Assembly (NCBI RefSeq): GCF_000337595.1
Contig: NZ_AOIL01000017.1
Span: 1-64,000 of the forward strand
Source of the DNA: Natrialba taiwanensis DSM 12281
GTDB taxonomy: Archaea > Halobacteriota > Halobacteria > Halobacteriales > Natrialbaceae
Direction of reading: 5' to 3'
DNA: 64,000 bases
Part shown: piece after piece, positions 13,663-22,573 of the stretch
Position numbering within the stretch: position 1 is the stretch's first letter
Layout: every line of letters begins with the position of its first letter
The notes under the pieces: model-generated
Databases searched by the model: none
Told to the model about the DNA's origin: nothing
Seen by the model: the letters and a program-made list of their open reading frames with translations, nothing else
Program-made: the position numbers and the translations under genes

Positions 13663-14793
13663 ATGAGAGTACGTGATGAGTCCGAAATCTGGAGAGCTAT
13701 CCGTTTAGCTCGCTCGTACGCCTTCAATTCGATTCAAACAAACCGGGCACAGAATGCTAGCTATCCAGATTCCTGTATCTTCGAGATGCAGTCGTTTATG
13801 AGCCTCGTACGATGTGGGACGGCACAGGGTGCTCATCGGTTCGCTCGATTCTCTAACAGAGAGCGAACCCATCACGGAGATACTCATCTTAGGGCGGTCA
13901 AACAATTCACTCCGGAGAACTTGCTCGAGGGATTCGATAGTGCCACGGGCCGTGTACTCTCAGTTATCGAGTCTGAAGCGTCGTTTCGCCGGCCCGTGAC
14001 GGTTGCGATCGACATTACGACCATCCCCTACTACGGGCGGACAGCTGAGATGCCGATGGTGAGCGGGACGAAAAACGGTGAGGGGCGAGCGTTCAAGTTC
14101 GCGACCCTCTCGGTTGTCGGGCGGAATATCCCGCTTGTACTGGCCGTTGAGCCGGTGCGTGAAAGTTCGTCATGGGACGAGAATCCACCGAATCAGATTC
14201 ATCGTGTTGTCCGCCGGCTCCTTCTGCGCGCAAAAGACCACGTCCCGATCGAGATGGTCCTGTGTGATCGGGAGTTCAACTCGATGCGCGTCTTCCAGAC
14301 GCTCTCGAACCTCGACGTCAACTACCTCATTCCGAAACGGATCACGAGCTCAGAACGCGAGGTAATCGAGCGAATGGACGAAGACGACCAAGAGGTCGCT
14401 GTTGAGACGGCTTCCGTTCATGTTGAGGTGGGCTCGCACCCGATGCGGTTCCTGTATATTCCGTCGACGGGTGGTGAAGGGACGACGGTGTTTGCGACGA
14501 ATCTCCGAGTCGGAACGGATGAGGCTAAGACGTTTTGTCGGCGGTATAGTCGACGGTGGCAGATTGAAAACGAGTACAAGAGCATCAAAGGCGAGTTTCT
14601 CGCGAAGACGTCCTCGAAGGAGTACCGCGTCCGGCTGTTCTACTTTGTGTTCGCCGTCCTGTTATACAATATCTGGCGACTCACGGATTTCCTGTTGAAA
14701 GTGGGTGTCGATGGAGAGATGGACTACACGCCCGTGTTGACCGCGGGCGAATGCGTTGAGCTCGTCGCGTCGCCGTTGATTCCGCCCGATTAA
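13663..14793 (+). CDS. IS4-like DDE transposase, N-terminus doubtful
   Basis: 376 aa as read. The reliable part begins near residue 65: RPVTVAIDITTIPYYG (first catalytic Asp, about 111-126), IEMVLCDREFNSMRVFQTL (second Asp, about 196-214), and RRYSRRWQIENEYKSIKGEF with the catalytic Glu, followed by LFYFVFAVLLYNIWRLTDFLL. This is a DDE transposase of the IS4 superfamily common in haloarchaea. The first ~60 residues have a poor fit and the frame starts almost on top of the lysE stop codon, so the true 5' end may have been altered or lost. Downstream non-coding sequence ends in the IS terminal motif at 14963-14981. All three acidic residues appear intact. Confidence 0.8.
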   Translation: MRVRDESEIWRAIRLARSYAFNSIQTNRAQNASYPDSCIFEMQSFMSLVRCGTAQGAHRFARFSNRERTHHGDTHLRAVKQFTPENLLEGFDSATGRVLSVIESEASFRRPVTVAIDITTIPYYGRTAEMPMVSGTKNGEGRAFKFATLSVVGRNIPLVLAVEPVRESSSWDENPPNQIHRVVRRLLLRAKDHVPIEMVLCDREFNSMRVFQTLSNLDVNYLIPKRITSSEREVIERMDEDDQEVAVETASVHVEVGSHPMRFLYIPSTGGEGTTVFATNLRVGTDEAKTFCRRYSRRWQIENEYKSIKGEFLAKTSSKEYRVRLFYFVFAVLLYNIWRLTDFLLKVGVDGEMDYTPVLTAGECVELVASPLIPPD

Positions 14794-18473: not shown

Positions 18474-18653
18474 GGTCTGGAAACGGATGGGCAGAGAACG
18501 GTGATCAAACCACTCGTAACTCCCGCCGGATTGCACCGACGTTCTAGGATGTGTTCATCCACGAACCCAAAGCAGTACCGATCTCTCAGTACGCGTTTGA
18601 GGATCGTTCGTACAACCGTCCACCGTCAGTTCCACCGGGAGGGGGCAATGGGA

Positions 18654-19694
18654 TTAATATTGGTGTTTGAAAGAGAGGTCGCCGTGGTCATAGGAGTAGG
18701 ATTTGATTTCCGCTTCATCACAGCGTGAATGGAGATCTGCCGGCGAAATATCCATCTGCTCGCCGAACTCTTTCTCGAGGTGTTTGCAAAATGCGATGGT
18801 AAGATTTCGATCGTCATCCCCAGTGTCTGCAACCTGAAGAACGACTGCCAGATCCGGATCGTCGTAATCCGGTTTGATGACGTAGTCGCCCGGAGTGAAC
18901 GGATTATCGGGATATTTGAGATTCGTGTGTTTGTAGGTGTAGAGCTTGATATTTTGATCGTCACAGTAGGATGCCAACTTTGCAGGATGGATCTCCCGCC
19001 AGTTCCCTGGCCCGTCATCGAGACTATTCGGAAATGCGACGCAGACCGCCTCACCATCCATCGTCTGGCCGTAGAGGTTGATATCTTGTTCCGGTGGGAG
19101 TACCTCCACGACTACCGCGACTGATGGATCGTTATCTTCCGCTTTTACTACGCGATCACCAGGCGTAAATGGGTTCTGCGGCTTTTGGTTCATATGAGCC
19201 GTATTTGGCCCTAAATCCTGTAATTCGTTCATCGGACGAGCAGCGAGGTGAGCGAGTTTTTCGGGTTTTTCACCAGAATACGCTCCCTGCGTTCTGACTT
19301 TCGATTTGAGTGTTTCAGTTCGTTCCCATCCAAGAAGGATGAGTGCATCCTCGTTATCGCGATGCCAAACCATCACAATAATGTCATCATCTGGGTCGTT
19401 TTCGAGGATCTTTGCCGGCCGGAACGCAGAAACGTCTCTCGAGGTTTTCACGTCGATCCTGTATCCGAAGACATCGAAATCGTGGCCGGAGAAACTCTCA
19501 GAATTACAGCGCCGGATCGCCGCTTCATTTTCCCATTCCCACATTTCGACAGGGAGATACTCACGACAGAACTGCTCGAATGCGAGTTCACCGAGATTTC
19601 CGATACGCTTGACGTCTAACTCGTCTGCACCTTGGATTACCGCTTGGTGGTGAGCTCGTTCTCTATCGATTTCATCCGGTGTGTAGAGATACAT
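18654..19694 (-). CDS. PD-(D/E)XK nuclease-like protein with duplicated C-terminal domain
   Basis: 346 aa. The N-terminal half has the layout of a restriction-endonuclease-like fold: a helix with GNLGELAFEQF (Glu36), then HDFDVFGYRIDVKTSRD, giving Asp74-x6-Asp81-x-Lys83, the D-(D/E)xK catalytic core. The C-terminal half holds two copies of one domain, each opening NPFTPGD-x-V-x-K (174 and 264), followed by DP-x-x-AVV and closing in similar stretches (IHPAKLASYCDDQNIK and ISPADLHSRCDEAEIK). A domain like this occurs alone in small haloarchaeal proteins, as I recall. Possible roles are DNA repair or defence; no methylase or helicase gene is adjacent. Function is inferred from motifs only. Confidence 0.65.
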   Translation of the reverse strand: MYLYTPDEIDRERAHHQAVIQGADELDVKRIGNLGELAFEQFCREYLPVEMWEWENEAAIRRCNSESFSGHDFDVFGYRIDVKTSRDVSAFRPAKILENDPDDDIIVMVWHRDNEDALILLGWERTETLKSKVRTQGAYSGEKPEKLAHLAARPMNELQDLGPNTAHMNQKPQNPFTPGDRVVKAEDNDPSVAVVVEVLPPEQDINLYGQTMDGEAVCVAFPNSLDDGPGNWREIHPAKLASYCDDQNIKLYTYKHTNLKYPDNPFTPGDYVIKPDYDDPDLAVVLQVADTGDDDRNLTIAFCKHLEKEFGEQMDISPADLHSRCDEAEIKSYSYDHGDLSFKHQY

Positions 19695-19851
19695 TAGCTA
19701 GGAATTATTCGGTTGTGTAATGTATATTCCGTACTGAAATCTACCGGCTACCTGGTAATCGCCGAAGAAGAAATCCAGGATCGATATTTTAGCCTCCCAG
19801 GAAAGTGATGCGTAGAGAAATCGAAGATCTCGGTGCTCGAACAGGCATCTA

Positions 19852-21051
19852 TTACCGGATATCGAAGTGCTGGTCGGAGTCAGTAGTCTCCGGAAGTGAC
19901 GTGTGCAATGCTCGTCGTCGACGGGCACGCCGAAAAGTTGCGTCTGGAAGCGCTCTAACCGCGAGATTTCGTATTCGAGTTCCGACTCGCGATTGAATCG
20001 TACTCAGGGCCCCGAGACGGTGGGACTCGGCTCGAATCCGATCGGCCCTGCGTTTTCGCTTGGCCTCGAAGGCCTCGAAGGCCGCCGTCGACGTTCCGCG
20101 CGTGGTGATTTCGTGGGCCAGCGTGAGCGCGTCTTCGATGGCCTGTGCCGCACCTTGCCCGGCGAACGGTAACATTCCGTGGGCCGCGTCGCCGGCAATG
20201 ATGACTGACCCGTGATGCCACCGTTCGAGTGACGGGACATCCGCCAAACCGGTACTGAACACGGTATCAGTATCAATCGACTCGACGACAGCGGGGATCG
20301 GAGCGGGGAACGCCGAAAACAGTTCGCGTAGCATCGCTTTCGTCGGCTGCGAGTCGGTTTGCCACTCCACCGCGGACTCCGACACCGTAGCGAACCAGTA
20401 GAACCGATCTGCGTCGATGGGTGCACCACCGGTGTAGGCCCCCTCGCCCCACACCTCGATCCCTCGAGTTCGGTGCTGCTCGGGTAAATCTACCGTTGCG
20501 ATGGCCCGATAGGCGATACTGTCCAGCACTCGTGGTTCGACGTTCGGCGCGACGGCGTCCCGGACGACGGAGTCGATGCCGTCCGTCCCGATGAGGATGT
20601 CCGGCTCTATGTGCGTGCCATCGGTAAATCGAACGGCCGGCGTTTCCGTGTCAGTCACCGCTTTGCACGCCATTCCGGTTCTGACTTCGGCGTCGAGTTC
20701 TTCGAGGAGTATCCGCTGCAGTTCGGCGCGGTGTATCGCCACGAAGCCGTAGCCGAAGTCGGCCCGTTCGACGCGGTCCAGATCGAATCGCGTCAACACT
20801 CGTCCGTTCGCGGACCGAATCGAACTGTCTTCGAGGGGAACGCCTGCCTCTCGGACACGGTCGGCGATTCCGAGGCGGTCCAAAATGAGCAACGCGTTTG
20901 TCTGTAGCAGGATTCCGGCGCCGATTGGACGGAACTCGGACGCAGCCTCGTATACGGTCGATGCCCATCCCCGCCGTTCGAGCGCGAGCGCCGTGGTCAG
21001 TCCACAGATCCCCCCTCCGACGATAGCGATGTCGGGCCTCTCTGTCGTCAT
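19852..21051 (-). CDS. FAD-dependent aromatic-ring monooxygenase-like protein
   Basis: 399 aa from ATG 21051 (MTTERPD). It has the three hallmarks of group A flavoprotein hydroxylases: IAIVGGGICGLTTALALERRG (GxGxxG, about 8-28; core VGGGICGL), the DG motif DILIGTDGIDSVVR (about 150-163), and GDAAHGMLPFAGQGAAQAIEDA (GD motif, about 284-305; core GDAAHGMLP). Such enzymes hydroxylate aromatic compounds with NAD(P)H and O2 (salicylate hydroxylase, UbiH and relatives). A Bat-like regulator is divergent at 21217, probably controlling it. The C-terminal 60 residues are Arg-rich, unusual for a haloarchaeal protein. Substrate unknown. An alternative ATG at 21066 adds five residues. Confidence 0.82.
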   Translation of the reverse strand: MTTERPDIAIVGGGICGLTTALALERRGWASTVYEAASEFRPIGAGILLQTNALLILDRLGIADRVREAGVPLEDSSIRSANGRVLTRFDLDRVERADFGYGFVAIHRAELQRILLEELDAEVRTGMACKAVTDTETPAVRFTDGTHIEPDILIGTDGIDSVVRDAVAPNVEPRVLDSIAYRAIATVDLPEQHRTRGIEVWGEGAYTGGAPIDADRFYWFATVSESAVEWQTDSQPTKAMLRELFSAFPAPIPAVVESIDTDTVFSTGLADVPSLERWHHGSVIIAGDAAHGMLPFAGQGAAQAIEDALTLAHEITTRGTSTAAFEAFEAKRKRRADRIRAESHRLGALSTIQSRVGTRIRNLAVRALPDATFRRARRRRALHTSLPETTDSDQHFDIR

Positions 21052-21183
21052 TGGCGCTTCCGGCACGAACTGCTGGTCATTTCGTCGCTACGGAGGTGTT
21101 CGCGGCGTCCGACGAGTTGGTTTCGTTCCATATCTGTCGGTTCGCATCGAGCCGTCGAATTTCGGCTGCCGGCTATCTACGCC

Positions 21184-21192
21184 GGTTTAAAG
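21184..21192 (+). promoter_or_regulatory. TATA-like element of the Bat-like regulator
   Basis: GGTTTAAAG, 25-33 nt before ATG 21217, consistent with leaderless transcription. It lies in the 165-bp divergent region shared with the monooxygenase. Confidence 0.45.
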
Positions 21193-21216
21193 CACGCCGG
21201 GTATCTTCTCGTACGT

Positions 21217-21873
21217 ATGCGATATCTCACGGTTCTCGTTCACCCCGCCGAGAGCGGTTCGTTCCACCCGCTCGGAGAGACACTCTCGAACGCGTCAGAG
21301 ATCGAGCGGGAGGCGATTCACCACGTCGAACATCTCGCCGACGACACGGTACTGTTATTCGCCGAGGGGAGCGGTGATCGGGACCGATACGAGGATATAA
21401 TGCGGGACTCCCCCCATGTCGTTGATTATTTCGTCTCCGGGGTGGATCGGTGGATGGCCGTCAGTCAGTTCGAACCGACGGACGCGACTCGATGTCTGCT
21501 GGAACGTCAACACGAGTCGAACGTCGTCATCGAGACGCCCATCTACTTCACCGCCGACGGTTCGCTCCGAATAACGTATCTGGGAAGCGACGCTGCGTTT
21601 CGAGAGTTGTTTCGCGGCTCCGTCGAGGAGACGGCTATCGCGTTCGATGTCGTCGAAACGGGCGACTACAACCCGGACGAAGCGGCGCTCACGAGACAAT
21701 TAACGACGCGCCAACGGGAAGTGCTCGAAGTAGCGGTCGAGATAGGGTACTACAGTGCGCCTCGGCAGTCCACGCTCGACGATGTGGCGGACGTCGTCGG
21801 AATTGCGACGTCAACTGCGGGCGAGCATCTCCGAAAAGTGGAGGAGAGCGTGTTCGGTGCGTTCGTTCGGTAA
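21217..21873 (+). CDS. Bat-like HTH-10 family transcriptional regulator
   Basis: 218 aa. The C-terminal HTH-10 domain is clear: LTTRQREVLEVAVEIGYYSAPRQSTLDDVADVVGIATSTAGEHLRKVEESV (about 163-213; core GYYSAPRQSTLDDVA). The N-terminal ~155 residues begin MRYLTVLVHPAESGSFHPLG, a pattern common in haloarchaeal HTH-10 proteins whose N-terminal domain is believed to sense metabolites. It is divergently transcribed from the flavin monooxygenase at 19852-21051, with 165 bp between starts, so it most likely regulates that gene. Complete and in a normal G+C context. Confidence 0.82.
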   Translation: MRYLTVLVHPAESGSFHPLGETLSNASEIEREAIHHVEHLADDTVLLFAEGSGDRDRYEDIMRDSPHVVDYFVSGVDRWMAVSQFEPTDATRCLLERQHESNVVIETPIYFTADGSLRITYLGSDAAFRELFRGSVEETAIAFDVVETGDYNPDEAALTRQLTTRQREVLEVAVEIGYYSAPRQSTLDDVADVVGIATSTAGEHLRKVEESVFGAFVR

Positions 21874-22573
21874 TTGTCGCGCATGTACGAGCGCTGCCCG
21901 TGGAATCACAGTTCCGGTAGTAGTTGGGCCTCGGCACTCATAGGGCTCGTCGTTACCGGGTGCCGAGTCCGGCTCGGAGCAGGTGTATCGTCATCGGCCG
22001 GACGATCGTAAGAGGGAGACGACCAAGACGGTTTGGATCGAGTTCAGTCGCGGTCGGTGTGGGCATCGGCGAAGGCGGTGTTCCACTCGTCGATGAGGTT
22101 TCGAAGGCGGTCGGTGTGAGTGGCGGAGAAGGTTGCGGGTGCGCGGGACGGCGGTTTGGTCTCGGTAGTCGACGGCTCACTTGCGGTGGTCGATTGTGAG
22201 CGAGTGGTCGAGTCGGCCTGAGTGGGTGGTTGAGTATCGGATCGAGTATCGGACGCGGTCGGTGTTGGATCAGTCGGCTGTGGATGTCGTGTGCTCATAT
22301 CGGTCGGGATGGGTGGAGTGTGTGATTCGGTTCGGCGAGAGAGTTCGGCGGTCGAAGCGGGCGGAACGAGATGCGTGAAGGCCGGCTACACGTACACGTG
22401 ACATCTGTACGCAGACCGTTACGTCCAACCATGATAAATGTTAATGATGTATGGGCAAGAGTCACAATCGTCACGACTAAACTCACGGCAGATGACCGAG
22501 CGCAGTACGTGGACGAGAGCGAGGATACCGAGGCGAATACCGGATGCGAGCGCATGCGAACCGAGAGCAAGAC
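21874..22573. other. Low-complexity gap around a doubtful small gene
   Basis: About 700 bases between the Bat-like regulator and the broken glycosyltransferase. The plus strand is rich in GGT/CGG trinucleotides (about 22040-22340). The only plausible coding content is the minus-strand small ORF at 22044-22298. A TATA-rich patch near 22430-22445 may belong to the broken gene's old promoter. Confidence 0.4.
22044..22298 (-). CDS. Small Ser/Thr/Pro-rich hypothetical protein
   Basis: 84 aa starting at ATG 22298. The first ~55 residues are almost only Thr, Ser, Pro, Gln and Asp (DPTPTASDTRSDTQPPTQAD-like), followed by a short possible helix (SATHTDRLRNLIDEWNTAF). I do not recognise it. The composition could reflect a surface-exposed linker or simply a non-coding repeat tract; the C-terminal helix-like segment is the only argument for a real gene. 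Confidence 0.35.
   Translation of the reverse strand: MSTRHPQPTDPTPTASDTRSDTQPPTQADSTTRSQSTTASEPSTTETKPPSRAPATFSATHTDRLRNLIDEWNTAFADAHTDRD

Follow-up and report, generated by a model that had tools for sequence, protein, structure and literature searches.

We analysed a window of 64 kb from Natrialba taiwanensis DSM 12281 (NZ_AOIL01000017.1), in which an earlier note, made from the sequence, had placed an open reading frame at 18654-19694. This reading frame is real, single and intact, lies on the minus strand and encodes a protein of 346 amino acids, which matches the profile of PHROG 18072 (phrog_18072) over its full length (residues 2-343; E 1.2e-175). The gene is AT-rich, with a GC content of 50% against 61% for the window as a whole, and sits in a replaceable slot, in agreement with its earlier placement in an accessory zone. 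The principal features of the locus are as follows.

18646..21926, strand not applicable: replaceable cargo slot; homology to the same-genus genome G043 stops at 18645 and resumes at 21927
18654..19694, minus strand: protein-coding gene, with an N-terminal PD-(D/E)XK-like domain, a conserved linker and two C-domains
19720..19728, minus strand: TATA-like box (AATATACAT), 26-34 nt upstream of the ATG (upstream sequences inspected by eye)
21927..21999, minus strand: sR-tMet C/D-box sRNA gene (Rfam RF02163, 65.6 bits), the 3' edge of which is the exact slot boundary

The genome G043 lacks the gene, and carries approximately 2.4 kb of other sequence between the positions that correspond to 18645 and 21927 of the window. 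Homologues begin 106-353 bp downstream of sR-tMet in several other Natrialbaceae genomes and genera, and the sR-tMet sRNA gene is possibly an integration hotspot. The adjacent genes in the window encode an FAD monooxygenase and an HTH regulator, neither of which is a defence gene. We additionally noted by eye a transposase-like reading frame at window positions 13663-14793, a few kb from the nuclease-like gene, which fits an accessory region. A match elsewhere in the same genome (G000:C19; 28% identity, E 0.12) was rejected as chance, as the matching stretch reads as a B-family DNA polymerase.

An A/T-rich, TATA-like element was found by eye 25-35 nt before the start codon in most homologues. 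The upstream sequence suggests that the gene may have its own promoter and a leaderless mRNA.

The nuclease-like N-terminal domain

The first 140 residues of the protein form a nuclease-like domain (the N-domain), with three groups of conserved codons.

19275..19694, minus strand: N-domain, nuclease-like, residues 1-140
19587..19589, minus strand: E36 codon; helix glutamate in the GNLGE motif, in 42/42 homologues and all aligned distant relatives
19479..19481, minus strand: D72 codon; probable first metal-binding Asp, in 42/42 homologues and kept in haloarchaeal distant relatives
19446..19454, minus strand: D81-V82-K83, (D/E)xK motif; D81 and K83 in 42/42 homologues, D-V-K or E-V-K in distant relatives

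Not only E36, D72, D81 and K83 but also most residues of the GNLGE and D-V-K-(T/S)-S-R-D motifs that surround them are invariant across the 42 aligned homologues. GNL(G/A)E, D72 and D-V-K are retained in more distant haloarchaeal proteins, the C-termini of which are unrelated, and the GE and (D/E)-V-K-T signatures recur in two small proteins from elsewhere in the phylum. At the level of sequence, this pattern of conserved residues is that of PD-(D/E)XK nucleases, with a helix Glu, an Asp and a (D/E)xK on adjacent elements, and it was found in all 42 rows of the alignment and in the distant haloarchaeal relatives. Of the nuclease motif proposed earlier, E36, D81 and K83 were borne out, but Asp74 was not: this position is E in 40 of the 42 homologues, and in distant homologues that retain the E, D and D-V-K it is occupied by A, T or K. 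On grounds of conservation, D74 was rejected as a catalytic residue, and the acidic residue before D-x-K is instead D72.

The AlphaFold model of the protein contains a helix (residues 26-46), two strands (72-75 and 78-85), a second helix (88-99) and two further strands (105-112 and 117-125), which is the order of elements expected for PD-(D/E)XK, at low pLDDT (approximately 33-69 over this block). Modelled alone, the N-domain gave a worse result than in the full-length protein (pLDDT 51), and a Foldseek search of the model against the PDB matched no PD-(D/E)XK structure. Among weak viral matches, one protein carries the label restriction endonuclease and another the label PDDEXK-like. The alignment gives good support to the motif; the PD-(D/E)XK fold is putative, the model being of low confidence. 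Directly upstream of a PCNA-like gene in a member of the phylum outside the haloarchaea, we additionally identified a protein of 180 aa (L190 2903-4166) that is remotely related to the nuclease domain.

The N-domain evolves under strong constraint, with dN/dS values of 0.016-0.05 in most pairs. Such extremely low values, and the many invariant residues, suggest a constant substrate, and would suit a nuclease of DNA repair or recombination, directed at a DNA structure and hitchhiking in accessory regions, as would the position of the remote relative beside PCNA. The gene, however, is absent or broken in most haloarchaeal genomes, is carried by viruses and has neighbours enriched in defence genes, and we consider a role in repair unlikely.

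The linker and the duplicated C-terminal domain

The remainder of the protein consists of a linker and two tandem copies of a second domain (the C-domain).

19179..19274, minus strand: linker, residues 141-172 (LAARPMNEL-DLGPNTAHMNQKP); conserved like the N-domain, pLDDT < 50
18909..19178, minus strand: C-domain copy 1, residues 173-262; profile match E 1.5e-39
18657..18908, minus strand: C-domain copy 2, residues 263-346; faster evolving, missing from single-domain homologues

Linker identity is 72-100% in nearly all homologues, and 59% in the most divergent one. As the linker is as conserved as the nuclease domain, although the model leaves it disordered, this suggests that it has a function.

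The internal C-terminal duplication reported from the sequence is genuine: the two copies align with 37.5% identity by BLASTP (E 1.6e-16), and by HHalign at 99.6% (E 2.8e-24). Copy 2 is 36-80% identical to its counterparts in homologues, against 61-92% for copy 1, and has a dN/dS of 0.065-0.35, against 0.04-0.06 for copy 1, being higher in every pair that was computable for both. It is absent from 9 of the 42 aligned homologues, and a tree of the shared part of the protein requires, on well-supported branches, three or more switches between the one-domain and the two-domain form. One copy of the C-domain evolves faster than the other, and was lost or gained on several occasions.

The tandem C-domains were modelled better than the N-domain, with pLDDT mostly between 70 and 92. 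A structural search of the PDB returned many matches to Tudor/Agenet domains, all of them weak (best E 0.011, TM-score 0.12-0.13 on the query); going by the model, the C-domain is perhaps Tudor/SH3-like.

Profile searches identified the C-domain in other contexts: on the N-terminal side of HNH nucleases, next to ParB-like domains, and in small proteins, the last of these being haloarchaeal proteins with single copies, in line with the earlier note. An HNH protein with the C-domain adjoins a homologue of the gene, in convergent orientation, in two Natrialbaceae genomes (G118 and G079). Since the C-domain is common to HNH nucleases, and these adjoin the homologue convergently in two genomes, it is a nuclease-associated module. 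A tblastn search of the phage collection with the HNH relative gave no match, although this protein matches the PHROG model phrog_2118. The ParB-like proteins are haloarchaeal and of approximately 240-260 aa, with the C-domain N-terminal to the ParB-like domain (L121, L126, L127, L129 and L213). In the tailed virus HHTV-2, gp83 (144 aa; L191 2842-3276) carries the C-domain alone (33 bits), and is conceivably a decoy or a regulator.

We tentatively propose, as a possibility that we rate rather low, that the C-domain represents a haloarchaeal reader module not described before and different from the SRA, EVE and winged-helix readers, which would read a mark on viral DNA or nucleoprotein, and which would be common to at least two types of nuclease (PD-(D/E)XK and HNH) and to ParB-like proteins. 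Lone domains of the HHTV-2 type would then possibly be decoys against these nucleases.

Distribution, mobility and genomic neighbourhoods

The protein had been described as an orphan, which is wrong, as the family is present in more than a quarter of the sampled genomes of the order. Protein searches identified relatives in 50 of the 125 genomes sampled from the family Natrialbaceae and, at E <= 0.001, in 112 of the 392 from the order, the latter figure taking in fragments and four distant relatives. By hand count, 85 of the 392 genomes hold an intact copy, 23 a broken copy only and 4 a distant relative only, so that broken-only copies make up approximately 21% of the genomes with a recognisable copy. 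The broken copies comprise stops, truncations and split genes; in one split copy (L074), the interrupting sequence has a reading frame that reads like a transposase.

Across 41 aligned loci, homologues are 64-90% identical, and are located on chromosomes, on megaplasmids and in Halfgib1, an induced pleolipovirus of Haloferax gibbonsii Ma2.38 (PMC7911831), which is the sole representative of PHROG 18072 in the phage collection. Host families are intermingled in the gene tree of the shared part, the pattern that horizontal transfer would produce. The gene is under strong purifying selection, is horizontally exchanged and is often broken. Sequence searches of Pfam, NCBIfam, PADLOC and the PDB with the protein found nothing convincing, the PADLOC defence models giving 0 families at E <= 10, and IMG/VR scans with the protein, one distant relative and the alignments recovered no relatives. 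The family is haloarchaea-wide, undescribed and without a named function, and combines a nuclease-like domain with a putative reader.

The one-domain form is mainly pleolipovirus cargo, and lies between the NTPase and wHTH/integrase genes. In Halfgib1, this slot (L080 8994-14219) holds a type II endonuclease and a cytosine methyltransferase, the homologue, and a SIR2-TPR protein, placing the homologue between a type II restriction-modification pair and a defence-like protein. In related proviruses, the same slot contains PycC-like or predicted-defence proteins, but also an MCM-like protein. These slots were read by tblastn and direct listing of reading frames, as gene calling by codon bias misses AT-rich genes, such as the restriction-modification and SIR2 genes of Halfgib1.

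Its presence in integrating pleolipoviruses next to integrases, its exchangeable slot at sR-tMet, its patchy distribution and its horizontal spread would also be consistent with a selfish, homing-type endonuclease, or a nuclease for the maintenance or integration of mobile elements, that spreads for its own sake, and the C-domain additionally occurs with HNH nucleases, the fold of which is common among homing enzymes. No fixed insertion site, however, is found across the family, which occupies plasmids, proviruses and many different islands, and we saw no interrupted host gene, intein or intron, making such an element an improbable explanation.

No partner gene recurs in most of the loci surveyed. 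The neighbours of the two-domain form include McrBC, Mrr endonuclease, D12 adenine methylase, Type I R-like proteins and DISARM/BREX-type helicases, and on a Halomontanus plasmid the homologue lies beside a BREX system. The survey of genomic neighbourhoods that the earlier note had called for revealed strong enrichment in defence genes: 136 PADLOC models were matched (E 1e-10) among 121 proteins within three genes of a homologue, whereas an equal number of proteins, drawn from 19 arbitrary loci of genomes in the same family, matched 7. As many models may be hit by a single protein, and as the control loci were unmatched for accessory regions, this comparison shows enrichment without fixing its exact size. 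On a Salinigranum plasmid (L155 1-9465), the homologue has deazaguanine-type genes (queC, queE, folE and TGT-like) and an E2/ThiF pair nearby.

The neighbours also include proteins of the abortive-infection type (SIR2 and PycC-like), and the same anatomy would serve a suicide nuclease, in which the C-domains would sense an infection signal and the N-domain would degrade host DNA or RNA instead of cutting the invading DNA. We saw no sign, however, of an activating partner or antitoxin, the gene standing alone with its own promoter-like element, and we consider this reading quite unlikely.

In the loci surveyed, no cognate methyltransferase travels with the gene, as in type IV and not type II restriction systems. 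A Dcm gene adjoins the homologue in the Halfgib1 provirus alone, next to a REase_II of its own, and the D12 methylase is a neighbour only in a Halorubrum subgroup. A type II restriction-modification system was rejected for lack of a consistent methyltransferase partner.

Function of the family and comparison with known systems

On balance, we favour the reading that the product is a DNA nuclease that acts alone, moves horizontally and resembles type IV enzymes, and that would serve antiviral defence or the exclusion of one virus by another. The earlier note had proposed a nuclease fused to a recognition module, possibly as a single-gene defence or repair system, and its defence proposal is the one best supported by the conserved catalytic-type residues, the module common to HNH nucleases, the defence neighbours and the pleolipovirus cargo; it was mistaken in D74, and the fold is unproven by the model.

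We infer a mechanism in which the N-domain, through E36, D72, D81 and K83, would act as a PD-(D/E)XK-type nuclease that cuts DNA, and in which the C-domain module, in one or two copies, would bind a feature that marks the target. Binding would license cleavage via the highly conserved linker. As no methyltransferase travels with the gene, and as the gene moves between hosts, the target would most likely be a modification or structure on invading DNA that is absent from the host, rather than simply an unmethylated sequence. Taken together, the absence of a methyltransferase, the mobility of the gene and its strict conservation point to a type IV-like enzyme directed at a constant feature of invaders, and not to an ordinary type II enzyme. 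The gene is carried by cells in defence islands and by integrating pleolipoviruses as cargo, where it would serve to exclude competing viruses.

Several considerations weigh against this reading, among them the low-confidence model of the nuclease domain, with no PDB match, and the non-defence genes adjacent in the window. The association with defence genes is guilt by association, as defence islands and proviral cargo slots hold other accessory genes too, and a sequence-specific restriction enzyme engaged in an arms race would not usually be conserved so strongly. The natural one-copy and two-copy variants, and a laboratory strain that has lost the gene-bearing plasmid, make the idea directly testable. 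In the type strain of Halorubrum lacusprofundi, the plasmid pHLAC01 bears a homologue (HLAC_RS16180); this plasmid is missing from strain ACAM34_UNSW, which is sensitive to the virus HRTV-DL1 (PMC10544981). Knowledge of antiviral defence in haloarchaea comes largely by inference from bacterial models, and no PADLOC model matches this family. If protective, it would constitute a widespread single-gene archaeal defence nuclease, carried by viruses themselves to exclude rivals, and would put a name to a new recognition domain common to several nuclease types.

Among known families, PHROG 18072 is the same family, with a full-length match, and its entry has no function, domains, distribution or role. 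The protein resembles the type IV enzymes Mrr and McrBC, which are often its neighbours, in having no cognate methyltransferase and in combining a nuclease with a separate, here putative, reader domain, but it matches neither their Pfam nor their PADLOC models, and its putative reader domain is a different one. The tandem Tudor/Agenet proteins AGDP1, ADCP1 and SETDB1 provide the best, though weak, structural matches in the PDB to the tandem C-domains (E ~0.01); no sequence similarity to them was found, the TM-score is 0.12-0.13, and their methyl-reader function is not transferable. With the haloarchaeal HNH proteins that match phrog_2118, the protein has the C-domain in common, and these are its convergent neighbours in two genomes, but they carry HNH with the domain at the N-terminal side, whereas here a PD-(D/E)XK-like domain is combined with the domain at the C-terminal side.

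Finally, the pleolipovirus HHPV4 (Haloarcula hispanica pleomorphic virus 4) encodes HHPV4I, an m6A-dependent endonuclease with homologues in haloarchaea, for which its authors suggest a role in the exclusion of other viruses (PMC10101028). HHPV4I consists of SRA, winged-helix and HNH domains, in contrast to the PD-(D/E)XK-like domain with one or two copies of another domain in the family described here, and is modification-dependent, a property for which the present family is a candidate. The two are alike in being stand-alone nucleases borne by integrative pleolipoviruses.
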